A DNA stretch of 64,000 nucleotides from Chitinophagales bacterium (GCA_017303415.1 JAFLBJ010000001.1:1984001-2048000), one strand, 5' to 3'; shown: positions 36,042 through 48,682, counted from the stretch's first letter. Notes: a model not told the origin generated them from the letters alone. Numbers and translations: made by a program.

Positions 36042-36428
36042 ATGAAGAGAACCGGTATTGCCATATTACTTTTCCTCTATTTCGCTTTCAGCAGTGGGAT
36101 TGTGATTAATCTGCACTACTGTATGGGTCGGTTCGATTCAGTACAGATCGGTAACTCCCCATCTGAGTATTGTGGAAAATGCGGCATGCATTCCGATTTT
36201 TCCAACGGCTGTTGTCATGATGAGGTCAAGATCATCAAGATCGCGGATGACCAACAACCTTCTTCCATTTTCAATTTACCTCTTTTCACCGCCCTCATCC
36301 TGCCGGAACAACCTGTTTATTTAGAACAGGCAACAAGCTCCGTTCAGGATAAGGTAGTGTATAAAACCCATTCACCACCTCTTCATAAACAGGATACCTA
36401 TCTTGTTAATGGTGTTTTCAGAATCTGA
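36042..36428 (+). CDS. HYC_CC_PP family protein
   Basis: A 128-residue protein with an N-terminal hydrophobic segment and the three motifs that name this Bacteroidota family: HYC (residues 25-27), a cysteine group CGKCGM...CC (44-49 and 57-58), and PP near the C-terminus (HSPPLHK). It is probably anchored to or secreted across the inner membrane, and the Cys/His sites suggest metal binding. The biochemical role is unknown. The frame opens at 36024, but the ATG at 36042 follows directly on a promoter. It begins a run of metal-related genes (HMA protein, TlpA, HMA-TonB receptor). Confidence 0.8.
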   Translation: MKRTGIAILLFLYFAFSSGIVINLHYCMGRFDSVQIGNSPSEYCGKCGMHSDFSNGCCHDEVKIIKIADDQQPSSIFNLPLFTALILPEQPVYLEQATSSVQDKVVYKTHSPPLHKQDTYLVNGVFRI

Positions 36429-36524
36429 GAATGACCGGAAACCGCCTGTTCGGTTATCAGTTTACCGGATGAAATCCCTTCTCCGGAAAGGTCAATCTTA
36501 TTTACAACTAAAAAATTAATGATC

Positions 36525-37055
36525 ATGAAAACGATTCGTTCTATATCCTTTGTACTATTCACCTTTGTATTTGGTTTTGCTTCACAAGCGCAGGACCTCA
36601 AAGAAGAAAGCTTTAATGTTTCAGGTAATTGTGGTATGTGTAAGACCACCATTGAAAAAGCAGCAAAAGCAGCAGGGGTGGAATATGCAGACTGGAACAA
36701 GGAAACCAAAGTACTCACCATTCGTTATAAAGCACAATCCACCAACGGAGCCAAAGTGCAGGAAGAGATCGCGAAGGCCGGATATGATAATGTAGGTGCT
36801 AAAGCCACCAAAGAATCATATGATAAGTTGCCTGCTTGTTGCAAGTATGATCGTGCAGAGAAATCAGCCGATGCGGCTTCCTGCTGCAGCGATAAGAAAT
36901 GCGAGGCTGGTAAATGTGCAGAAGGAAAATGCACCGATGGAAAATGTGCCGAAGGAAAGGAATGCAAAGGTTGCAAAGGTGAAAAAGGACACAAAGGGGA
37001 AAAAAATGTGGCAATGGACTGTTGCAAGAATGGTAAATGTGAAAAACACAGCTAA
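36525..37055 (+). CDS. Secreted HMA-domain protein with metallothionein-like Cys-rich tail
   Basis: A 176-residue protein with a signal peptide (cleavage near SQAQ, residue 23), a heavy-metal-associated domain with the GNCGMC site (residues 34-39), then YDKLPACCKY (about 99-108). It ends in a tail of about 55 residues with eleven further Cys, much of it repeating as K-C-x-x-G pentads. The HMA site should bind Cu(I) or Zn(II), and the tail could sequester several ions like a metallothionein (inference). The HMA plus LPxCC unit is repeated in the N-terminus of the TonB receptor two genes downstream. An in-frame ATG two codons earlier is an alternative start. Confidence 0.85.
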   Translation: MKTIRSISFVLFTFVFGFASQAQDLKEESFNVSGNCGMCKTTIEKAAKAAGVEYADWNKETKVLTIRYKAQSTNGAKVQEEIAKAGYDNVGAKATKESYDKLPACCKYDRAEKSADAASCCSDKKCEAGKCAEGKCTDGKCAEGKECKGCKGEKGHKGEKNVAMDCCKNGKCEKHS

Positions 37056-37074
37056 GAATTTATAACAAACACCT

Positions 37075-37563
37075 ATGATCCGTTATAAAACAATATTCTT
37101 CCTGATTGCCCTTTCTCTGGGCAGTTTGTCGGCCATGGCCCAACCCCGTTTTGGGAAACCGGCCACGGAAATCGCCCTGCCAACAGAGGCAGGCGATACG
37201 ATAACATTATCTTCCCTGAAAGGGAAGGTGGTCTTACTCGATTTTTGGGCGTCCTGGTGCGGTCCCTGTCGGGTATCCAATAAAGGCCTGGGTAAATTGT
37301 ATGAAAAATACAAGGACAAAGGCTTTGAGATTTACGGGGTCTCCCTTGATGAAAACAAGAAGGCCTGGATAAATGCCGTGAAAAAGGATAAGATCACCTG
37401 GTTGCAGGTGAATGACAATGGGGGATGGGAGGCAAAGACCGCTTTGCAATGGAATATCAATCAGATACCTACTTCCTACCTCATCGATAAACAAGGCATC
37501 CTTATTGGCATGGACCTTGAACCCGAACAATTAGAAGCCCTTTTGGAGGATCTATTGAAATAA
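37075..37563 (+). CDS. TlpA-family thioredoxin-like disulfide reductase
   Basis: A 162-residue secreted thioredoxin-fold protein. The signal peptide ends at AMAQ (residue 23), the active site is WASWCGPC with Cys62 and Cys65, and the cis-proline loop is INQIPTSYLID. Such TlpA/ResA-type proteins keep cysteines reduced in the periplasm. Placed 19 bases after the Cys-rich HMA protein and 25 bases before the HMA-TonB receptor, it probably reduces the metal-binding cysteines of these neighbours (inference). Confidence 0.9.
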   Translation: MIRYKTIFFLIALSLGSLSAMAQPRFGKPATEIALPTEAGDTITLSSLKGKVVLLDFWASWCGPCRVSNKGLGKLYEKYKDKGFEIYGVSLDENKKAWINAVKKDKITWLQVNDNGGWEAKTALQWNINQIPTSYLIDKQGILIGMDLEPEQLEALLEDLLK

Positions 37564-37588
37564 CGGACATGGGCGAAAATACGCGCTC

Positions 37589-40126
37589 ATGAAAATATTT
37601 TTTTTAATCGTACTTCTTGTCCCGGGCCTGTTCATACAGGCCCAGGATAAGGGTCGTACAGCAGATACCACAATCAGTTTCCTTGTCATGGGCAATTGCG
37701 ATATGTGTAAAAAACGTATCGAAGAAGCTGCAAAAGGTAAAGGGGTTTCCAAAGCACAATGGGATCAGGTCAGTAAAGCATTGACCGTTACCTATCAACC
37801 CAGGGTTACATCGGTGGAGAAGATCCATGACCGCATTGCCACCGCCGGACATGATACTCCCTTGCGTACAGCCCGTGATGAAGTGTACAATGCCCTGCCG
37901 GATTGTTGTTTGTACCGGGCAGGTTCTCACCTGACCATGGAAGAAGATGCCGTCTATGGCGTTGTATTGGAAATTGATGCACAGCAACAATACAAACCGC
38001 TCGCGGGCGCTTCCATCTTACTTGGTGGTACCACCGAAGGGTTATCGACCAATGAGAATGGGTATTTTAAGATTCCCCATGTTCCGGAGAATGGATTCCT
38101 GCTCGTCAGTTATTCAGGATTTCAGGCAAGCCGCATTGATATTCAACCAGGGCAACACCTCAGTATCATCCTCAACGCGGCCCATGAATTGCAGGAAGTG
38201 AGGATCATCTCCTCCAGAAGACCTGCTTATGTATCTCCCCAATCTGTTATCCGGACACAGATCATGACGGATAAGGAATTGACCAAGGCCGCTTGTTGTA
38301 ACCTCTCCGAAAGTTTTGAGACAAATTCTTCCGTCGATGTTTCCTTTAATGATGGCGTGACTGGAACAAAACAGATCCAGTTAATGGGACTGGCCGGACA
38401 ATACACGTATATGACCGTGGAGAATATGCCCGGGCCTCGTGGCCTCGCGATCGCCGGTGGCCTGAACTCAATACCCGGTACCTGGATCGAATCCATTCAA
38501 CTGACCAAAGGACCGGGTTCAGTACTAAATGGCCCGGAAGGATTGGCCGGACAGGTAAACATCGAATTAAAGAAACCGGAGAAGATGGAAAAATTGTTCC
38601 TCAATGGTTATGTGAACCAAATGGGCAAGACAGACCTCAACCTGAACCTTTCCAGACAACTCAGCAAGAAATGGTCTACAGCCCTTCTGGTCCACCATGC
38701 TTTTATGAATAACCGGGAGGTAGATTTTAATGAGGATGGATTTCGTGATATACCAACAGGTACCTTAAGCACCCTCCTGAACCGCTGGCGCTATGATAAT
38801 GGAAAAGGAATGATGGTACAGGCCGGAGCAAGGTTATTATGGGAAGATAAAACCGCCGGACAAACCCAATATGATCCTGCCCAACACCGCAATTCCATGA
38901 GTGTATATGGAATGGGCATGGAGTCGCGCCGATATGAATTGTTTGGGAAATGGGGTTATGTATTTCCCAAAAAGAAATACAGTAGCCTGGGCCTTCAGGT
39001 TTCCCACTTTGTACATGATCAGGAAGATCATTTTAGTTGGAGAGAATATTCGGCCAGACAAGGAAACCTTTATGCCAACCTGATCTATCAATCCATATTC
39101 TCCAATACCAATCATAAGTTTAAAACAGGATTGAGTTATACGACCGATGATATACAGGAAAAATTCATCAACCAATCCTTTGACCGTGTGGAAAGAACCA
39201 GCGGTGCATTCTTTGAATATTCCGGTTCCTCTGGTAAACAATGGGAGTGGGTCATTGGATTAAGGGGTGACCAGAATAATCTTTATGGATTCTATGTTAC
39301 TCCAAGGGTACACCTGCGTTTTCAACCACGATCCAAAACCGTGGTTCGCCTAAGCGCAGGACGAGGTCAACGCACTGCGAATATCCTGGCCGAGAACCGG
39401 GTGGTATTTATCAGTGCCCGCAATCTGTCCTTCCTTAACACATCACCCGGAAAAGCGTATGGCCTCGATCCGGAAATTGCCTGGAATTTGGGAATTTCCA
39501 TCGACCAACGGTTTCGCCTGGCAGGTCGTGATGGGAATATTGCCTTTGACCTGTTTCATACCTACTTCCAGAATCAGGTCGTCATTGATATGGAGGGATC
39601 TGCCAGGAAACTGGATATTTATAACCTGGATGGAAAATCATTTGCCAACAGTTTCCAAACAGAGATCCAGTATGAGGTATTACCCCGTCTGGATGCCCGG
39701 ATCGCCTATCGCTATTATGATGTACAGGTCACCTACCAGGGGAGTTTAAAACAAAAACCATTTGTTTCACCTCATCGCGCCTTCATCAACCTGGCCTATA
39801 CCCTCGCAGGTTGGAAATGGGATGCTACACTGAGTTATTATAGTCCTAAGCGATTGCCCACAACCGAAGATAACCCGGTCGGGTTCCGTTTTCCCGAACG
39901 ATCACCAGGCTATACCCTCCTCAATATGCAGGTAAGCAAAAGCCTTGGTAAGAATAACCCCCTGGAGTTTTACCTCGGCGGGGAAAACCTCGGCGGAATT
40001 ATTCAAAAAGAACTGATCATTGCACCCCAGGATCCATTTGGGCCTTTATTTGATGCCTCTCTGGTTTGGGGTCCGGTAACAGGCAGAATGTTGTATGCCG
40101 GGTTCAGATGGAAAATCGGAGAATAG
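37589..40126 (+). CDS. TonB-dependent receptor with N-terminal HMA metal-binding domain
   Basis: An 845-residue outer membrane receptor with an unusual order of parts: signal peptide (to about 19), HMA domain (about 30-95, site MGNCDMC at 34-40), linker with YNALPDCCLY (100-109), carboxypeptidase-regulatory domain (about 123-203), TonB plug (about 215-330) carrying a Cys pair ACCNLSESFETN (Cys236-237), then the barrel. The HMA and LPxCC parts are clearly related to the secreted HMA protein two genes upstream. The likely cargo is a transition metal or metal chelate, plausibly copper; this is inference. It is the last gene of the first metal block and is followed by a family A repeat. Confidence 0.88.
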   Translation: MKIFFLIVLLVPGLFIQAQDKGRTADTTISFLVMGNCDMCKKRIEEAAKGKGVSKAQWDQVSKALTVTYQPRVTSVEKIHDRIATAGHDTPLRTARDEVYNALPDCCLYRAGSHLTMEEDAVYGVVLEIDAQQQYKPLAGASILLGGTTEGLSTNENGYFKIPHVPENGFLLVSYSGFQASRIDIQPGQHLSIILNAAHELQEVRIISSRRPAYVSPQSVIRTQIMTDKELTKAACCNLSESFETNSSVDVSFNDGVTGTKQIQLMGLAGQYTYMTVENMPGPRGLAIAGGLNSIPGTWIESIQLTKGPGSVLNGPEGLAGQVNIELKKPEKMEKLFLNGYVNQMGKTDLNLNLSRQLSKKWSTALLVHHAFMNNREVDFNEDGFRDIPTGTLSTLLNRWRYDNGKGMMVQAGARLLWEDKTAGQTQYDPAQHRNSMSVYGMGMESRRYELFGKWGYVFPKKKYSSLGLQVSHFVHDQEDHFSWREYSARQGNLYANLIYQSIFSNTNHKFKTGLSYTTDDIQEKFINQSFDRVERTSGAFFEYSGSSGKQWEWVIGLRGDQNNLYGFYVTPRVHLRFQPRSKTVVRLSAGRGQRTANILAENRVVFISARNLSFLNTSPGKAYGLDPEIAWNLGISIDQRFRLAGRDGNIAFDLFHTYFQNQVVIDMEGSARKLDIYNLDGKSFANSFQTEIQYEVLPRLDARIAYRYYDVQVTYQGSLKQKPFVSPHRAFINLAYTLAGWKWDATLSYYSPKRLPTTEDNPVGFRFPERSPGYTLLNMQVSKSLGKNNPLEFYLGGENLGGIIQKELIIAPQDPFGPLFDASLVWGPVTGRMLYAGFRWKIGE

Positions 40127-40136
40127 AATTGAGTTG

Positions 40137-40278
40137 AACCACAGAGACGCAGAGACACAAAGGAGGTTTATTACCCGTTATTGATTAGTAATTATTGCCA
40201 TTGGTACCAATATCGCAATCTTTTAATAATCAACAATTAATAATAATCCTCCGCTGTGTCTCTGCGTCTCTGCGGTTT
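40137..40278. repeat. Inverted-repeat element, family A (8-bp units, second copy)
   Basis: The left arm is AACCACAGAGACGCAGAGAC and the right arm, flipped, is AACCGCAGAGACGCAGAGAC, separated by about 90 AT-rich bases. The same architecture and nearly the same arms occur at 5361-5503. The two spacers do not align well, so only the arms and the length are shared. No ORF lies inside. Confidence 0.8.
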
Positions 40279-40338
40279 AAAAATCCCCTGAATAAGCAGA
40301 TTTTTCCAAAAGAGTAGAACATCTGTTATAAAAATTCG

Positions 40339-40375
40339 TATATTCGTCTAAATATAATTTTAGACACGCCTAAAA
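40339..40375 (+). promoter_or_regulatory. Promoter with DtxR/MntR-type operator before the second TonB receptor
   Basis: A -7-like box TATATTCG (40339-40346) is directly followed by two overlapping dyads: GTCTAAA-6-TTTAGAC (40346-40365) and TTTTAGAC-AC-GCCTAAAA (40358-40375, 7 of 8 bases paired). The second has the layout of binding sites of DtxR/IdeR/MntR-type metal repressors (TTTAGGC...GCCTAAA). The predicted transcription start falls inside, so a bound repressor would block it. It lies 10 bases before the GTG start. Confidence 0.6.
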
Positions 40376-40385
40376 AATATTTCAA

Positions 40386-42665
40386 GTGAAACGAATTTTA
40401 ACGATGGGGTACCTCCTGGGTATGTCCTTGTTGGGGCAGGCACAGGAAACCGTGGCGGAGGGGAAAATAATCAATCAGGAAGGCGAGCCGATATTGGCAG
40501 CCACAATTCAATGGCAAAAAAGAAAGGCTATCTCTGATAGCACGGGTTATTTCCGCCTGACCATTCCAACCAAGGGGAAAATAAGTTTACACATATCTGC
40601 CATGGGCTATGAGCCTTTGGATACTGTGATGACATCGGTGATGAATGGGGTATTTAAATTAACACGCGAAGTAAAAGTAGGAGAGGAAGTAGTGATAACC
40701 GGGACATTAAGATCGGTGCGACGTTCGGAAAGCCCGGTGGCAGTAGAGATATTCACTCCGCAATTCTTCAAGCGTAATCCCGCTCCGAGTATATTCGAGG
40801 CCTTGCAACAAGTGAATGGTGTTAGGCCACAATTAAATTGCAACGTATGTAATACCGGCGATATTCATATCAATGGGCTGGAAGGTCCCTATACCATGGT
40901 GACCATCGATGGTATGCCAATTGTCAGCAGTCTGGCTTCGGTATATGGATTGTTTGGAATACCGGTACAGTTGATTGACCGGGTGGAGATCGTCAAAGGT
41001 CCTGCTTCCGGATTATATGGATCGGAAGCCATTGGAGGGCTGATCAATATCATTACGCGCCAACCCGAGAAAGCACCCCGTTGGGCGATCGATGGTATGA
41101 CTAGCTCCTGGAGCGAACAGCAATGGGATATAGGCTCCAGATTCAGGATAGGAAAAAAGGCCAGCCAATTACTGGGCATAAATTATTACAGGTACCAGCT
41201 ACCGGTGGACAACAATGAAGATGGATTTACCGATCTAACCCTGCAACACCGTGTTTCGATATTCAGCAAATTATCGCTGGCGCGCAAAATGAACCGGGAA
41301 GCCCATCTGGCAGGCCGGTATTTTTATGAGGATCGCTGGGGTGGGCAGATGAACTGGACCCCTGCTTTTCGGGGGAGTGATAGTATATATGGCGAAAGCA
41401 TTTACACCAACCGTTGGGAAATAATTGGTAAATATCAACTGCCCATTCCCGGCAACTGGAATTTTTCTTTTTCGGGTACAGGTCACCGGCAGAATTCATT
41501 TTATGGTATTACTCCGTATTTCGCCCGACAACATATCGGATTTGGCCAATTGTTAGGGCATTTGAGATTTGCCCCAAGGCACCAGACTTTAATTGGATTG
41601 GCCTTGCGTTATAACCGCTACGACGACAATTCTACAGCAACAAGAGATACCCTGACAGGAGCCAACCGACCCGATCGTTATTTATTACCCGGGTTATTTC
41701 TTCAGGATGAATGGGATCTTCAAGACCGGAAAACCCTGCTCACCGGTATTCGGTTTGATCATCACCCCATACATGGCATGGTGTTTACCCCAAGAGTTGC
41801 TTTTAAATGGGGACTTAGCGAAAGAACCGTTTTTCGGTTGAACGCCGGTACGGGCTTTCGGGTGGTCAATCTTTTTACCGAGGAACATGCAGCATTGACT
41901 GGCGCAAGGGTAGTGGAGATTCGTGAGGCCCTGAAACCCGAAAGAAGTATGAATGTCAATCTTAACCTGACCTCTCGCTGGAAATGGGGCCTGCATCATT
42001 TCTCGACTGATATATCCTCCTGGTATTCTTATTTCCACAACCAGATTTTGCCAGACTATGACACAGATCCCAATAAGATCATTTATCAGAATATGAAGGG
42101 TCATTCACGGTCAGTCGGAATGACCGTTAACCTGGAATGGAACTGGGCCAATCGTTTCCGTTTACAGACCGGTCTTACATTACAGGATGTAGCCCGAGTG
42201 GAAAAGATCAATGGCAAAGGATCCAAGCAACCACTGGTATTGACCGAAAAATGGAGTAGTACATGGTCTGCCTCCTATACTTTCCCCAATGCCCGATGGG
42301 TATTGGATTTTACCGGGAATCTATATGGTCCCATGCGCCTTCCACTGCTTTCCAATGTGGATCCACGACCCGGTATGTCACCCATTTGGGGAATTCAAAA
42401 TCTGCAAATGACCTGGAAGGCGGGTAAAAAAATTGAAGTGTATGGGGGAATAAAAAACCTGTTTGACTGGACACCCGACCGGGCGGCACCTTTTCTGATC
42501 GCCAGGGCGAACGATCCCTTTGATAAGCAGGTGAGTTATGATGCAGAAGGAAAGGTTCTGGCAACACCAGACAATCCTTATGCCCTGAGTTTTGACCCTA
42601 CCTATGTGTTTGCACCTAACCAGGGTCGGAGAGGGTTCTTAGGAATGCGCTTTACCGTTCAATGA
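40386..42665 (+). CDS. TonB-dependent receptor with CNVC motif in the plug
   Basis: A 759-residue receptor: signal peptide (to about residue 20), carboxypeptidase-regulatory domain (about 23-95), plug (about 105-230) with the clear GLYGSEAIGGLINIITR motif, and a barrel ending in a Phe-Thr-Val-Gln terminus. The plug contains NCNVCNTGDIHINGLEGPYT (about 151-170), two cysteines that could hold a metal or a disulfide. This group of receptors is common in Bacteroidota metal loci. The start codon is GTG. The upstream DtxR-type palindrome suggests repression by a metal-sensing regulator and hence uptake of iron, manganese or a related ion, but the ligand is unproven. Confidence 0.88.
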   Translation: MKRILTMGYLLGMSLLGQAQETVAEGKIINQEGEPILAATIQWQKRKAISDSTGYFRLTIPTKGKISLHISAMGYEPLDTVMTSVMNGVFKLTREVKVGEEVVITGTLRSVRRSESPVAVEIFTPQFFKRNPAPSIFEALQQVNGVRPQLNCNVCNTGDIHINGLEGPYTMVTIDGMPIVSSLASVYGLFGIPVQLIDRVEIVKGPASGLYGSEAIGGLINIITRQPEKAPRWAIDGMTSSWSEQQWDIGSRFRIGKKASQLLGINYYRYQLPVDNNEDGFTDLTLQHRVSIFSKLSLARKMNREAHLAGRYFYEDRWGGQMNWTPAFRGSDSIYGESIYTNRWEIIGKYQLPIPGNWNFSFSGTGHRQNSFYGITPYFARQHIGFGQLLGHLRFAPRHQTLIGLALRYNRYDDNSTATRDTLTGANRPDRYLLPGLFLQDEWDLQDRKTLLTGIRFDHHPIHGMVFTPRVAFKWGLSERTVFRLNAGTGFRVVNLFTEEHAALTGARVVEIREALKPERSMNVNLNLTSRWKWGLHHFSTDISSWYSYFHNQILPDYDTDPNKIIYQNMKGHSRSVGMTVNLEWNWANRFRLQTGLTLQDVARVEKINGKGSKQPLVLTEKWSSTWSASYTFPNARWVLDFTGNLYGPMRLPLLSNVDPRPGMSPIWGIQNLQMTWKAGKKIEVYGGIKNLFDWTPDRAAPFLIARANDPFDKQVSYDAEGKVLATPDNPYALSFDPTYVFAPNQGRRGFLGMRFTVQ

Positions 42666-42709
42666 CCTCAAACCAATTGCCCAGACTACAGTATATGCGA
42701 AGAATTGAG

Positions 42710-42717
42710 TACATTTG
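42710..42717 (+). promoter_or_regulatory. -7 box abutting the small metal-island gene
   Basis: TACATTTG matches TAnnTTTG and ends only 3 bases before the ATG at 42721, so a transcript from it would start at the start codon itself. Confidence 0.55.
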
Positions 42718-42720
42718 CCC

Positions 42721-43104
42721 ATGCGAAAAGGCACCGCCGCCATATTACTCATTGTGTTCACCCTCTCGCATACTGAATTGCACCAGTTCATAAAAATACC
42801 GGTGTTGTTTGAGCATTTCCGCGAACATCGAATCGAAGATCCGGGTTTAGGCTTCCTCGCATTTCTGCGGATGCATTACGAAAAAATAGTGATCGATGAA
42901 GATTATTCACGCGATCAACAATTACCCTTCCGGGATGCTGACTGTGGGATCATAAGCGCCTCAGCCACGGATATTCCCCCGCAGGCCATTCGTTTCGAAC
43001 GACAATCCCCCAACGAATTCCCGCTGCATTTTACCCCGAAAAGAAACATAGCCTATACGCATCTTCACCTGGCTGACATATTTCAACCTCCCCGGTTAGC
43101 CTGA
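42721..43104 (+). CDS. Small conserved secreted protein upstream of the RND pump
   Basis: A 127-residue protein with a hydrophobic N-terminus (TAAILLIVFTLSHT), a His/Glu-rich stretch (TELHQFIKIPVLFEHFREHR), the phrase LAFLRMHYEK, an acidic-to-basic motif DEDYSRDQQLPFRD (about 58-71), a Cys, and a C-terminal LHLADIFQPPRLA. The chain has many His and could bind a metal. The terminal PP motif recalls the HYC_CC_PP protein at the other end of the island. I know small proteins of this type next to CusA-like genes in Bacteroidota but no function for them. The ATG at 42721, not the upstream frame, fits the promoter. Confidence 0.7.
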   Translation: MRKGTAAILLIVFTLSHTELHQFIKIPVLFEHFREHRIEDPGLGFLAFLRMHYEKIVIDEDYSRDQQLPFRDADCGIISASATDIPPQAIRFERQSPNEFPLHFTPKRNIAYTHLHLADIFQPPRLA

Positions 43105-43176
43105 TTCTCGTCTTTATTACTTTAGCTTTTCCATTGAAGGGCTATACACCATTTTATTTACCGTACAAGAAAAGAC

Positions 43177-46100
43177 ATGCTCAACAAGCTCATTCAATTT
43201 TCTGTCCGGAATAAGCTGATCATTGGTTTGTGCACCATTGGTCTGATCATTTGGGGTACGCTCAATGTGATGCGGCTTCCTATTGATGCGCTTCCGGATA
43301 TAACGAGTAACCAGGTGCAGGTGATCACTGTATCGCCCAGCCTGGCTGCACCCGAAGTGGAAAGGTTGGTCACCTTTCCCATAGAACAAGTCAATGCAAA
43401 TATTCCCGGTATTGATGAGATCCGATCGATCTCCCGTTTTGGTCTGTCTGTTGTGACCATAGTTTTTAATGATAAGACCGATCTCTATTGGGCCCGCCAG
43501 CAAGTATCGGAACGCATCAACCAGGTACGTGATCAGATACCCGCTTCTGCCGGTCGCCCGGAACTGGCGCCTGTAACCACCGGGCTTGGAGAAGTATATC
43601 AGTATATTCTTCGCCCGGCACCAGGTTTTGAAAGCAAATACGACCTCACCGAATTACGTACCATTCAGGATTGGATCGTACGCAAGCAGTTGCTTGGTAC
43701 ACCTGGTGTGGCCGATGTGAGTAGTTTTGGAGGTTACCTCAAACAGTATGAAGTGGCCATTATTCCAGCTAAGCTAAAAAGCATGGGCGTAACGCTCGAT
43801 GATCTGTTTACAGCGCTGGAAAAAAATAATGAGAACTCAGGCGGTGCCTATATTGAAAAAGGACAAGGCTCTTTATTCATTCGGACTGAAGGACTGGTAA
43901 AGGATCCGGAAGATCTGAAGAAGATCGTGGTACGGCACCATACCAGCGGACTTCCTGTCTTTCTTCGTGATGTAGCGGAAGTTCGCATTGGTCATGCTGT
44001 GCGATACGGGGCCATGACCTATCAGGATAAGGGAGAAGTGGCCGGAGGCGTGGTCCTGATGTTAAAAGGCGCCAATGCATCTGCCGTGATCAAGGATGTG
44101 AAAGAGCGTATTGCGGCCATTCAACAAACATTACCCGAAGGAGTAATTCTTGAACCTTTTTATGACCGGACAAAAATGGTTTCAAAGGCCATGGGTACGG
44201 TGGAAAAGAATTTACTGGAAGGGGCCTTGATCGTCATCTTCATTCTCGTTCTCTTTTTAGGAAATCTCCGGGCCGGGCTGATTGTCGCTTCCGTGATCCC
44301 GCTTGCCATGCTTTTCGCTGTGATCATGATGAACCTGTTTGGCGTTTCAGGAAACCTGATGAGCCTTGGTGCGCTCGATTTTGGCCTTATTGTAGATGGG
44401 GCCGTGATCATTGTTGAGGCCGTCATACACCGGTTGTCACACAGCAAACACCTCAATAAAGTGATCCATATAACCCAGGGTGAAATGGACAATGAGGTAC
44501 AGGCTTCTGCCGGAAAAATGATGAATTCAGCCGTATTTGGACAGATCGTGATCCTCATCGTTTACCTGCCGATCCTTTCACTCGTAGGCATCGAAGGAAA
44601 AATGTTTAAACCCATGGCGCTGACGGTTTCTTTTGCCCTGATCGGAGCATTTCTCTTATCACTGACCTATGTGCCCATGATCAGTTCGGTATTTCTTTCC
44701 AAAAAAATAAGCCACAAAGAAAACTGGTCAGATAAACTGATGAAGTGGATTCATGGATTGTACAGACCCGTGTTGAATCTTGCGTTGCGTTTTCCAAAGA
44801 CATTGGTCCTCACAATCGTATTGGTGTTTGGATTGAGCCTTTTTATCATGTCGCGGTTGGGTGGAGAATTCATTCCGGAACTGGAGGAAGGAGATTTTGC
44901 CGTGGATGCCCGTTTACTTACCGGTAGTTCCCTGAGTGAAACGATCCGGAATTCAACCCGGGCAGCAGCCATCCTGCAACAATTTCCGGAAGTAGAGAAG
45001 ATCGTTACCCGCATTGGGGCCAGTGAGATACCTACCGATCCCATGCCGGTGGAGATGACAGATATAATCATTTCCCTGAAGCCAAAAGAAGAATGGACCA
45101 CCGCCTCCAGTTCAGATGAACTGGCCAATAAAATGAGTGAAGCATTACAGGTGATACCCGGAATGACCTCCGGCTTTCAGTTCCCGGTTCAAATGCGTTT
45201 TAATGAACTGATATCAGGTGCCAGACAGGATGTTGTATGTAAGATCTTTGGTGATGACCTGGATAGCCTGGCAGCTTATGCGCAGGAATTGGGTGCACTC
45301 GTGCATAAAGTAGATGGAGCCAAGGATATTTATATTGAAACGGTAACCGGCCTTCCGCAGGTGGTGATCAATTATCGCCGCGAAGCCCTGGCGCATTATC
45401 AGTTAAATGTGGCGGATGTGAACCGCGCGGTACGGACCGCCTTTGCAGGAGAAAGCGCCGGATTGGTCTTCGAACAGGAAAAAAGGTTTGATCTGGTGGT
45501 ACGGTTAGATGAAAGCTCCCGGCAGGATCTCCATGATGTAGAACAACTCCTCATTGCCTCCCCAATTGGAATTCAAATACCTCTTTATCAGGTTGCCAGT
45601 GTGGAGATAAAGGAAGGGCCCAACCAGGTACAACGGGAGAATACCCGGAGAAGGATCATTGTAGGGTTCAATGTTCGTGGACGGGATGTGAAATCTGCAG
45701 TAAAGGAACTGGAAGAAAAGGTGGGAGCACAATTGAAGATGGAACCAGGTTACACCGTAAAGTATGGAGGACAGTTTGAAAATCTGGTTGAAGCTTCCAA
45801 CCGGCTGGCTATTGCGGTACCTGCCGCTTTGTTATTGATTCTCGTTATGCTCTATTTCGCTTTTGGTTCCCTGCGTTATGGAGTTTTGATCTTTTCCGCC
45901 ATACCCCTTTCTGCGATCGGTGGTGTGATCGGATTATGGGTCAGGGGAATGCCCTTTAGCATTTCAGCCGGAGTCGGGTTCATCGCGCTATTTGGTGTGG
46001 CTGTGTTAAACGGGATTGTATTGATCGCCGAATTCAACCGGCTTAAGAAACAAGGATTACATGACCTAAATATGATCATTATGGAAGGAACAAAGATCCG

Positions 46101-47541
46101 GTTAAGACCTGTGATCATGACAGCGGCAGTGGCCTCCCTGGGATTTTTGCCCATGGCCCTGAGCCATGGCGTAGGCGCCGAGGTACAAAGACCACTGGCT
46201 ACAGTAGTGATCGGAGGGTTGATCTCGGCCACATTCCTCACGCTGGTAGTATTGCCGGTTTTATACCGTTGGGTAGAGAAACTCCGGTTTAGAAGCAAGG
46301 CTAAACATATTGAAATGACCATTGTACTCGCTTTGTTCATTTTCCCGGCAACTGCACAGCAACCTGTACCAGAGCGAATGAGCCTGGAACAAATGCATTC
46401 ACTGGCCGATAAACAAAACCTGCGGATCATGGCCATGGAGAAAGAACAGGCTTATTGGAAAGCCATGCAGGGTGGTGTATTTGATCCGGCCAAAACGATG
46501 ATCGGAATGGAATATGGCAACATAAACAGTTTGAATAATGATACCCGTTTTTCCATCAATCAATCTTTTTCCTTACCGGCCGTCTATCAACGCCAACGTG
46601 ATTTGTATCGATCCGAGGAAGGACTTAAACAGGTAGCCACTGAATTACAGAAAAGCGCCCTGCACCGCGAAATCACCCTTTTATACTATGACCTGGCCTT
46701 GTTGGAGGAAAGGGCCAGCTTACTGAACCGCATCGATTCTACCTATAGCCGGATCTTGCGCGCGGCCGAACTACGGTATAAAACAGGAGAGTCAAATATA
46801 CTTGAGAAAACCAGTGCAGAGGCCCAAATGCAGTATTTTCAGTTGCAACGCGAGGAGATCGAATCTGACCAGACAAAACTTATGGTTCAATTGGCTAGGT
46901 TGCTCCATGTAAAAGATCCTGTACGTCCGCTACAGGGTTCACTCCGCCTGATCGCACCGGTGCTATCCGATTCAGTAGCTGTTGACCAACATCCACTCGG
47001 ACGTTTGGGAAAGCAAGAGGAGATATTGGCGGGGTCACGGGTGGCGGTTGAGCGGTCCCGCTTATTACCAGAATGGGGGTTGGGCTATTCCAACCAATCG
47101 ATCATCGGATTTCAAAGCCGGGACGGAATCAATCAGACCTATTTTGGTGGGGGTGAACGTTTCCATACCGTCGGACTAAATATTGCCGTACCTCTTTTTA
47201 ACAAAGCAACCCGTTCGCGTATCAGGGCAGCCAGGGAGCAGGAAAAAGTAGCAGGTCTGAATAGGGAGTATAACGAAGAATACCTCCGGACGGAACGGCA
47301 GCACTGGACCATGGAATATCTGAAACAAGGGAAATACATTGCCTACTTTGAATCTACTGGCTTGAAACAATCGGACCTGATCATTAAAAATGCCAGACTG
47401 GCGTTTGATAAGGGCGAAATCAGTTATCTGGAATGGAGCCAGCTTATGCGCAATGCTATTGAGATCCAGTTGAACTACCTGCAGGCCCTTCGATTGAATA
47501 ATCACGCGGCTGCTGAATTAAATTATCTATCCGGAAAATGA
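43177..47541 (+). CDS. CzcA/CusA-type heavy-metal RND pump fused to a TolC-like outer membrane factor
   Basis: A 1454-residue fusion. Residues 1 to about 1040 form a complete heavy-metal-efflux RND transporter with twelve helices and porter domains. The helix 4 motif ALDFGLIVDGAVIIVE holds Asp401, Asp407 and Glu414, the CzcA pattern for divalent cations. From Met1047 an in-frame signal-peptide-like stretch (MTIVLALFIFPATAQQ) opens a TolC-type outer membrane efflux domain (to 1454) with long coiled helices. The two halves are separate genes in Proteobacteria. The pump would move Co, Zn, Cd or Cu from periplasm or cytoplasm to the outside. The adaptor gene follows 8 bases on. Confidence 0.93.
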   Translation: MLNKLIQFSVRNKLIIGLCTIGLIIWGTLNVMRLPIDALPDITSNQVQVITVSPSLAAPEVERLVTFPIEQVNANIPGIDEIRSISRFGLSVVTIVFNDKTDLYWARQQVSERINQVRDQIPASAGRPELAPVTTGLGEVYQYILRPAPGFESKYDLTELRTIQDWIVRKQLLGTPGVADVSSFGGYLKQYEVAIIPAKLKSMGVTLDDLFTALEKNNENSGGAYIEKGQGSLFIRTEGLVKDPEDLKKIVVRHHTSGLPVFLRDVAEVRIGHAVRYGAMTYQDKGEVAGGVVLMLKGANASAVIKDVKERIAAIQQTLPEGVILEPFYDRTKMVSKAMGTVEKNLLEGALIVIFILVLFLGNLRAGLIVASVIPLAMLFAVIMMNLFGVSGNLMSLGALDFGLIVDGAVIIVEAVIHRLSHSKHLNKVIHITQGEMDNEVQASAGKMMNSAVFGQIVILIVYLPILSLVGIEGKMFKPMALTVSFALIGAFLLSLTYVPMISSVFLSKKISHKENWSDKLMKWIHGLYRPVLNLALRFPKTLVLTIVLVFGLSLFIMSRLGGEFIPELEEGDFAVDARLLTGSSLSETIRNSTRAAAILQQFPEVEKIVTRIGASEIPTDPMPVEMTDIIISLKPKEEWTTASSSDELANKMSEALQVIPGMTSGFQFPVQMRFNELISGARQDVVCKIFGDDLDSLAAYAQELGALVHKVDGAKDIYIETVTGLPQVVINYRREALAHYQLNVADVNRAVRTAFAGESAGLVFEQEKRFDLVVRLDESSRQDLHDVEQLLIASPIGIQIPLYQVASVEIKEGPNQVQRENTRRRIIVGFNVRGRDVKSAVKELEEKVGAQLKMEPGYTVKYGGQFENLVEASNRLAIAVPAALLLILVMLYFAFGSLRYGVLIFSAIPLSAIGGVIGLWVRGMPFSISAGVGFIALFGVAVLNGIVLIAEFNRLKKQGLHDLNMIIMEGTKIRLRPVIMTAAVASLGFLPMALSHGVGAEVQRPLATVVIGGLISATFLTLVVLPVLYRWVEKLRFRSKAKHIEMTIVLALFIFPATAQQPVPERMSLEQMHSLADKQNLRIMAMEKEQAYWKAMQGGVFDPAKTMIGMEYGNINSLNNDTRFSINQSFSLPAVYQRQRDLYRSEEGLKQVATELQKSALHREITLLYYDLALLEERASLLNRIDSTYSRILRAAELRYKTGESNILEKTSAEAQMQYFQLQREEIESDQTKLMVQLARLLHVKDPVRPLQGSLRLIAPVLSDSVAVDQHPLGRLGKQEEILAGSRVAVERSRLLPEWGLGYSNQSIIGFQSRDGINQTYFGGGERFHTVGLNIAVPLFNKATRSRIRAAREQEKVAGLNREYNEEYLRTERQHWTMEYLKQGKYIAYFESTGLKQSDLIIKNARLAFDKGEISYLEWSQLMRNAIEIQLNYLQALRLNNHAAAELNYLSGK

Positions 47542-47548
47542 TCTTAAA

Positions 47549-48682
47549 ATGAATCATATGAAATTTTTTAAAATAACTATACTGGTTTTCCTGTTTTCCT
47601 GTGGCGCTAAAACGGAAACCGAACAGCCTGTTCAGGAGACTGCGGAACAGAAGACCACACTCACCGATGCGCAGATAAAAAGCGCCGGTTTGCTTACCGA
47701 TACCATTCGCATGGAAACCCTGCATACGGAAATCCTGGTGAATGGAGTGGTGGATGTGCCGCCACAAAATATGATTTCCGTAAGCTTCCCGCTGGGAGGT
47801 TATCTCCGTACCACCGACCTTTTACCCGGGATGCATGTCAACCGGGGTCAGGTCATTGCCCGTATCGAAGACCCTTCACTGGTTCAATTACAGCAGGATT
47901 ATCTTGTTGCCAAAGCCAAATTAACGTACCTGGAGCTGGATTTTGAACGCCAGCGGGAGCTGAACGCCGATGAGGTGAATACGGCCAAGCAATTTCAACA
48001 GGTACAGGCAGATTTTGTGGCCCAGAAAGTTACCATTAGGGCCCTGGGAGAAAAGTTGCGCCTGGTCAATATCGATCCTGAAAAATTAAATGAAAATACC
48101 ATTTCGCGAAGCGTACCCATCTATTCACCCATTAATGGATTTGTGTCAAAGGTCAATGTGAATATTGGGAAATATGTAAATCCTGCTGATGTATTGTTTG
48201 AGCTGATCAATCCGGATGATATGCATGCGGCACTCACCGTTTTTGAGAAGGACCTTCCATTTGTTCAACCCCGGCAACGGGTAAAAGTAAGTTTTGTGGA
48301 AGATCCGCTTAAGGAATATGAATGTGAGGTACTATTGGTTACAAAGAATGTGGATGAGAACCGGGGAGCGCTGGTTCATTGTCATTTTGAAACGCAACCC
48401 AAACAATTATTGCCGGGTATGTTTCTTAACGCTCGTATTCAGGTGGATAATGTGAAAACGCTCGCCGTTCCCGAAGAAGCCCTGGTGCGCTATGCCAATA
48501 ATGAGTATTTGATTAAAGTAACCGGTAAAAATACCTATGAACTTTTACCGGTTGTTTCCGGCGTGAAACAGGAGGGTAAAGTAGCCGTATCATCCAGCAA
48601 AGAAAACCTGACCGACGTGGTAGTGGTAACGAAAGGCGCATATACCGTGCTGTCGGCGATGATGAATAAGGGGGAGGAGTGA
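47549..48682 (+). CDS. RND efflux periplasmic adaptor (CusB/CzcB type), lipoprotein
   Basis: A 377-residue membrane fusion protein that bridges the RND pump and the outer membrane factor. The lipoprotein signal ends at FLFSC (Cys18). The barrel-sandwich/lipoyl halves (VVDVPPQNMISVSFPLGGYL, then VPIYSPINGFVSKVNVNIGKYV) enclose a helical hairpin (about 112-165), followed by the beta-barrel and membrane-proximal domains. The His/Met-rich N-terminal metal site of CusB is not evident. ATGs at 47549 and 47558 are both possible. It is cotranscribed with the CzcA-TolC fusion, completing a tripartite pump. Confidence 0.92.
   Translation: MNHMKFFKITILVFLFSCGAKTETEQPVQETAEQKTTLTDAQIKSAGLLTDTIRMETLHTEILVNGVVDVPPQNMISVSFPLGGYLRTTDLLPGMHVNRGQVIARIEDPSLVQLQQDYLVAKAKLTYLELDFERQRELNADEVNTAKQFQQVQADFVAQKVTIRALGEKLRLVNIDPEKLNENTISRSVPIYSPINGFVSKVNVNIGKYVNPADVLFELINPDDMHAALTVFEKDLPFVQPRQRVKVSFVEDPLKEYECEVLLVTKNVDENRGALVHCHFETQPKQLLPGMFLNARIQVDNVKTLAVPEEALVRYANNEYLIKVTGKNTYELLPVVSGVKQEGKVAVSSSKENLTDVVVVTKGAYTVLSAMMNKGEE

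Follow-up and report, generated by a model that had tools for sequence, protein, structure and literature searches.

A TonB-dependent receptor from a Chitinophagales bacterium carries a heavy-metal-associated (HMA) domain at its N-terminus, ahead of the plug, with a further cysteine pair behind it. With a probability of about one half, we consider that this protein imports a soft metal, as the ion or as a chelate, and has its periplasmic acceptor covalently attached; copper would be the most likely substrate. The evidence lies in the order of the domains, six invariant cysteines, a recurrent gene neighbourhood and fusions of the HMA module at both ends of the receptor. The arrangement points to a direct hand-over in some receptors, in which an imported soft metal, probably copper, goes to a carrier without first being released.

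The receptor is encoded in a window of 64,000 nucleotides, the whole stretch of DNA that was analysed. The host genome is 3.7 Mb in size and its relatives among the searched genomes include Chitinophagaceae (Bacteroidota). The gene belongs to a run of co-directional genes on the + strand (36042–48682) that starts with an HYC_CC_PP protein and ends with an RND adaptor (Table 1). The RND pump and its outer-membrane efflux protein occupy a single open frame of 1454 codons, and the small secreted protein that precedes them gave no Pfam match. A scan of the operon against Rfam detected neither a riboswitch nor any other Rfam RNA, and the number of sites obtained in a promoter and terminator scan was about equal to that for shuffled sequence.

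Table 1. Genes of the operon and parts of the HMA-bearing receptor, in coordinates of the window.
Feature	Coordinates	Strand	Evidence and remarks
HYC_CC_PP protein	36042..36428	+	NF047658, 44.3 bits, cut-off 28; operon head; signal peptide
Secreted HMA carrier, 178 aa, 15 Cys	36519..37055	+	Pfam HMA, E 5e-06; clade support 100/99
TlpA/ResA-like secreted thioredoxin (WCGPC)	37075..37563	+	AhpC-TSA/Thioredoxin_8, E about 1e-20
HMA-TonB-dependent receptor, 845 aa	37589..40126	+	Pfam; AlphaFold2; Foldseek to BtuB/Cir/FepA-type receptors
Receptor HMA domain, residues 28-92	37670..37864	+	CxxC at 37697-37708; loop His88
Receptor YNALPDCCLY tail, residues 100-109	37886..37915	+	Cys106-Cys107; in 21/21 aligned fused receptors
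Receptor carboxypeptidase-like regulatory domain, residues 132-204	37982..38200	+	PF13715 (CarbopepD_reg_2), 41.4 bits
Receptor plug, residues 222-321	38252..38551	+	PF07715, 36.9 bits, cut-off 23.9
Plug AACC (Cys236-Cys237)	38288-38299	+	Invariant in 36/36 fused and unfused receptors
Receptor beta-barrel, residues 335-845	38591..40123	+	AlphaFold2 strands, block pLDDT mostly 83-92
Second TonB receptor, plug CNVC	40386..42665	+	Pfam Plug and barrel
Small secreted protein, no family assigned	42721..43104	+	Kept in same-genus operon (L067)
CzcA/CusA-family RND pump fused to outer-membrane efflux protein	43177..47541	+	TIGR00914, 1173 bits; OEP
RND periplasmic adaptor	47549..48682	+	TIGR01730, above cut-off

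An initial annotation of this DNA had described an HMA metal site followed by the phrase Y-x-x-LP-x-CC-x-Y in both the receptor and the secreted carrier, and both proteins were found in place with these elements (YNALPDCCLY in the receptor and YDKLPACCKY in the carrier). Pfam domains and cysteine positions bear out its further description of the receptor, in which the module comes before the carboxypeptidase-like and plug domains and the plug adds a cysteine pair. The full order is signal peptide, HMA domain, Y-LP-x-CC-x-Y tail, carboxypeptidase-like domain, plug with AACC and barrel. An LQEV-type segment after the carboxypeptidase-like domain is a candidate TonB box. The phrase had also been called rare, which it is not: the HMA-LPxCC module is present in 111 of 117 family genomes.

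The metal site of the receptor HMA domain, GNC-DM-C, comprises C37-x-x-C40. The whole receptor has six cysteines, arranged as three pairs (C37 and C40, C106 and C107, C236 and C237), and none of the six varies among 21 aligned fused receptors. The same holds for His88 of the HMA loop, within the motif GHD. Its position in the loop would be that of His61 in Synechocystis Atx1, a residue located at the metal-bridged interface of the Zn(Atx1)2 structure (PMC3763678). A one-residue insertion changes CxxC to CxxxC in the fused receptor L070 (the same as L011 and L115; GACDALC), and L117 likewise has CxxxC (GVCAAYC). Since the plug AACC is kept in fused and unfused receptors alike, it would form part of the core receptor, and the HMA cysteine pairs would belong to the acceptor.

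Assignment of the receptor HMA domain by Pfam is borderline overall, with 24.4 bits for the annotated protein, just below the cut-off of 24.8, and 29.4 bits, above it, in a six-frame search of the genome. AlphaFold2 folds residues 28–110 into an HMA-like unit (block pLDDT about 84–94) and produces a normal barrel with strands from residue 335 on; the plug is poorly modelled, with pLDDT values (30–60) too low to judge Cys–Cys distances. The Pfam barrel model has no match in the receptor. Foldseek retrieves classical TonB receptors, the best being Cir, BtuB, PqqU and FepA (E about 2e-23 to 2e-22), with TM-scores to the targets of up to 0.78. Relatives of the HMA module in the PDB are mostly domains of copper ATPases and CopZ, together with MerP and domains of zinc ATPases (ZntA); none of these HMA relatives covers the LPxCC tail. 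The module shares with CopZ, Atx1, CopA and ATP7B the CxxC HMA core, and profile matches span most of the domain, but it differs from them in the YxxLPxCCxY tail, in being secreted and in its fusion to an outer-membrane receptor.

Copper receptors of the TonB type have been described. OprC of Pseudomonas, a reported copper importer, binds copper through a plug cysteine (PMC8610252). OprC/NosA and the window receptor are alike in being TonB-dependent and in consisting of a plug and a barrel, but the OprC/NosA ligand set comes without an HMA domain (PMC8610252). Of the OprC motifs CxxxM and HxM, neither is found in the window receptor, and none of the 36 aligned receptors has both. A copper site of the OprC type was rejected for the window receptor on account of this absence. 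In Bordetella, the cruR-crtA-PepSY operon encodes CrtA (BfrG), a copper transporter (PMC12914433, PMC9426467) of a subfamily with a conserved ligand site that includes an essential histidine (PMC12914433). The CrtA operon resembles that of the window in that a small secreted cysteine-containing protein with a C-terminal Pro-Pro heads a TonB receptor, which in Bordetella is under copper regulation; the former operon starts with a DUF2946 gene whose motif is RAPP, the latter with HYC_CC_PP. As far as searched, the CrtA paper mentions no HMA domain (PMC12914433), whereas the window receptor has one.

Receptors of the STN and SusC/RagA (CarbopepD_reg) types likewise possess a periplasmic extension in front of the plug, and the carboxypeptidase-like domain is a further point of agreement. 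The window receptor goes beyond these in having an extra metal-carrier domain at the front, one that matches a gene which is separate in relatives. There is also a likeness to MerP/MerT, where a secreted HMA protein is the periplasmic acceptor for a metal-transport system. MerP, however, is a separate protein that serves an inner-membrane transporter, whereas the acceptor in the window belongs to an outer-membrane receptor.

The relationship between the fused domain and the separate gene was followed across Bacteroidota. About 22 of the receptor homologues in the 117 family genomes are fused and the rest are unfused, and the HMA-LPxCC module was used as a separate query in an independent search of the same genomes. 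Unfused receptors are adjoined by a free HMA gene of about 115–180 codons, and RefSeq labels such pairs simply as a TonB-dependent receptor and a heavy-metal-associated domain protein. We fetched 20 family loci in which the receptor has no N-terminal HMA part. An adjacent co-directional free gene is present in 18 of them, upstream in 17 and downstream in one (G082); of the other two, G088 (L106) is a C-terminal fusion and G016 has no HMA gene nearby. A phylum sample of 32 genomes outside the family yielded one fused receptor and 31 that are unfused, with an HMA gene on the same strand immediately 5′ in 12 and immediately 3′ in ten, and a non-adjacent one or none in nine; this sample is slightly biased because four of the 5′ cases (G183, G257, G272 and G296) gained score from an in-frame upstream HMA gene. 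The adjacency that would be expected by chance is about 0.002 per genome, given one to three modules per ~4 Mb genome. Homologues without the HMA part, which the initial annotation had named as evidence against its proposal, thus do exist in the literal sense, yet they mostly keep the module next door (18/20 in the family set and 22/31 across the phylum). The nine phylum-wide receptors without an adjacent HMA gene are counted against the importer with an attached acceptor.

The fused design is not a rarity: an HMA part at the N-terminus of the receptor recurs in many Chitinophagaceae, Sphingobacterium and Saprospiraceae. A named collection contains the fused form in Chitinophagaceae such as Segetibacter koreensis, Flavisolibacter ginsengisoli and Pinibacter, in 12 Sphingobacterium loci with the variant AACCDLSE, and in Saprospiraceae, Haliscomenobacteraceae and one Flammeovirgaceae genome. 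This collection is skewed towards HMA-bearing receptors since the query contained the HMA part, and the adjacency figures given above are those of the family loci and of the phylum-wide genomes.

Fusion has also occurred at the opposite end. In L106:8120-10456 the HMA-LPxCC module is located at the C-terminus, directly past the last barrel strand, and the sister of this receptor is that of L105, which has its free HMA gene on the 3′ side. In the four biased 5′ cases mentioned above the HMA gene and the receptor share a reading frame that is interrupted, within the combined match, by only one or two TAA codons, so that joining the two would appear to need little change. A tree of 116 receptors, made by a quick method with one support value, places five changes (gains or losses) of the N-terminal fusion, at least three of them forced by well supported branches. 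The fusion appears, then, to have arisen more than once or to have been lost. Gene fusions in some genomes and separate adjacent genes in relatives make up a Rosetta-stone pattern, and because of it these comparisons support the receptor and the HMA carrier module as functional partners.

This distribution bears on two alternatives. The HMA part might be a periplasmic sensor or gate that alters the plug or TonB coupling, or that signals, and does not carry metal. N-terminal extensions of TonB receptors are often used for signalling, as with STN domains, and the module does sit before the carboxypeptidase-like domain, away from the pore. We nevertheless think a sensor or gate unlikely: relatives encode the module as a free secreted carrier, for which transfer is the better fit, one receptor bears it at the opposite end, and the conserved neighbourhood contains no anti-sigma partner. 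That a common domain was acquired by chance and does nothing special in this receptor is highly improbable. HMA domains are certainly widespread, being found in 14 of 14 control genomes, but the aligned fused receptors all keep the CxxC, the loop histidine, LPxCC and AACC, the fusion recurs and the separate genes stay adjacent.

The free carrier of the window has C38-x-x-C41 ahead of its LPxCC phrase and a cysteine-rich, metallothionein-like C-terminus (about residues 120–178). It scores 27.2 bits against Pfam HMA (cut-off 24.8) and in a single BLASTP comparison shares 42% identity with the receptor module over 107 residues (E 2e-23). In a tree of 45 modules, this carrier groups with four others in a clade separate from the fused modules (support 100/99). 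Other genomes possess a cassette of HYC, cysteine-rich HMA carrier, second HMA protein, thioredoxin and outer-membrane-like protein, which in seven of 16 fetched loci is followed by relatives of the second receptor of the window (45–63% identity; L187–L193). The second receptor had been passed over in the initial annotation. The carrier and thioredoxin would thus be its usual company, with the HMA receptor set between them. Since the set of HYC, carrier, second HMA protein and thioredoxin recurs with the other receptor type, the window appears to merge two cassettes; a similar join is seen in G091.

We therefore rejected the free carrier as a duplicate of the receptor's own HMA domain, as it falls in a separate clade and travels with the second receptor. 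The relay between carrier and receptor proposed in the initial annotation gains partial support: fusions and adjacency favour a partnership of the receptor with an HMA carrier, but the clade and the cassette of this particular carrier speak against it as the receptor's counterpart. Cross-talk between products of the two cassettes is possible, because all of them would meet in the periplasm.

Three further observations concern these components. The second TonB receptor, with its CNVC cysteine pair in the plug, represents another receptor cassette of the metal type. Open frames of ~277–310 aa in G044, G050:C7, G080:C4, G029:C8 and G118 contain the HMA-LPxCC module as well, fused to a further partner. 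Upstream of the receptor in L080 (8353-8916, − strand) and in L085 there is an AraC-type regulator with an HMA-like N-terminus (NMVC.RC), a candidate regulator.

The substrate is likely to be a soft metal. Among such metals copper is favoured ahead of the others, though the choice is not settled. The direction would be import, going by general knowledge of TonB receptors. The type of the HMA domain speaks for copper, its profile hits being mostly copper ATPases and CopZ. In G021, which is of the same genus, a copper-type P-ATPase is encoded directly 3′ of the receptor (TIGR01511, 609.7 bits, cut-off 397), and HMBD, DUF3347 and CusA-family genes lie near other copies of the receptor. The same relay might instead handle a divalent metal (Zn, Cd, Co or Ni) or mercury, which we regard as rather unlikely. 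The points in its favour, which also count against copper, come from the RND pump, a plasmid and the HMA relatives. The closest solved structure to the pump is that of the zinc pump ZneA (4k0e), the DFG..VDGA segment is kept and the CusA methionine triad M573/M623/M672 is replaced by D/M/E, so that two of the three methionines are absent. Plasmid pHALHY01 of Haliscomenobacter hydrossis (L204) combines two TonB receptors, an RND pump of the window type and an adaptor with a ZntA-like (Zn/Cd-type) P-ATPase, and MerP and ZntA domains are among the HMA relatives. We accordingly rejected any reading of copper from the pump, which looks like a divalent-metal type. However, an RND cluster is found in just three of 41 family loci and its genes lie outside the conserved cassette, the ATPase next to the same-genus receptor is of the copper type, and Cu(I) is a good match for Cys–Cys pairs that come with neither Asp nor Glu. 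The pHALHY01 island also carries a di-heme oxidoreductase.

The pump enters into one more alternative, in which the carrier, the thioredoxin and the HMA parts would bind surplus metal for the RND system, and the ligand taken up by the receptors would be a chelator or something unrelated. Such a detoxification role would agree with the pump and adaptor downstream in the window, with the resemblance of the cysteine-rich carrier tail to a metal sponge and with the location of cassettes, in several genomes, close to genes for P-type ATPases or members of the CusA family. We judge it decidedly unlikely, since most genomes conserve a core of HYC, HMA and receptor with no pump, and a TonB importer would be an odd tool for the purpose.

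For an importer with an attached acceptor the following sequence of events can be envisaged. TonB-driven movement of the plug would expose metal at the AACC pair, on the first plug helix and beside the TonB-box region. The metal would then pass by thiol exchange to the CxxC of the HMA domain and the LPxCC pair at the receptor N-terminus, and from this unit to soluble periplasmic HMA carriers, so that the ion would never be free in the periplasm. The secreted thioredoxin may keep the cysteine pairs of the relay reduced. Fusion at either end fits such a relay, as the N- and C-termini of TonB receptors are both periplasmic.

The gene at the head of the operon may add a layer of control. HYC_CC_PP proteins are present in 101 of the 117 family genomes and precede the HMA gene or the receptor in most loci of both cassettes. 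In 30 sequences only G19, C27, C44, C57, C58, P112 and P113 are invariant. The distance from CC to PP is 54.7 (s.d. 2.0) and falls within 52–58 in 50 of 54 sequences, that from HYC to CC is more variable (s.d. 5.0), and column identity between CC and PP drops to 0.24. The PP motif is mostly [HNK][ASG]PP, with PP almost invariant, and is placed about 16 residues from the C-terminus. AlphaFold2 models residues 1–65, the signal peptide and cysteine part, well and leaves the remainder unstructured. Set against the other coding regions of these loci, the CC–PP stretch is rich in C over G (median percentile 0.93), an effect that amino-acid composition could cause in part.

These features recall CruR of Bordetella, a DUF2946 protein that senses copper through CXXC and on which the ribosome stalls at RAPP 45 residues further on, thereby controlling a copper TonB receptor through Rho (PMC9426467). 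The arrest has been demonstrated in vitro (PMC12992588). CruR and HYC_CC_PP share the layout of a small secreted cysteine-containing protein with a C-terminal Pro-Pro at the head of a TonB-receptor operon, but RAPP is three residues from the end of CruR. The DUF2946 profile (PF11162) has no match in 30 HYC_CC_PP members at E values up to 5 (HMMER, filters applied), and membership of that family was rejected. Because of this, and of a motif that is mostly [HNK][ASG]PP, HYC_CC_PP would be an analogue of CruR from an apparently unrelated family. It is possible that HYC_CC_PP is a metal-sensing arrest leader peptide. A metal-binding mini-domain would then stand at a constant distance from a Pro-Pro stall site, and its metal-driven folding would control expression of the receptor. 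That the cassette combines a built-in thiol relay, from the plug CC to the HMA CxxC/LPxCC, with a copper-sensing ribosome-arrest leader of this kind is a tentative proposal, which we think less likely than not.

TonB copper receptors (OprC and CrtA) and HMA carriers are already known. We found no published description of a receptor with a built-in HMA acceptor, or of an HMA-TonB receptor fusion, in the literature searched, which was mostly without subscription journals. The exit of metal from a TonB receptor into the periplasm is poorly understood, and the fused receptor offers a single-protein test case in which each transfer step could be probed through mutation of the three cysteine pairs. 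The reading favoured here, an importer with an attached acceptor, would identify a widespread and, as far as our searches go, undescribed cassette for soft-metal acquisition in Bacteroidota, where outer-membrane copper uptake is poorly known. A recent survey in EMBO J reported copper-related RAPP/RGPP leaders to be missing from Bacteroidota (PMC12992588); if the head gene is a leader, control by copper through ribosome arrest would be extended to this phylum.
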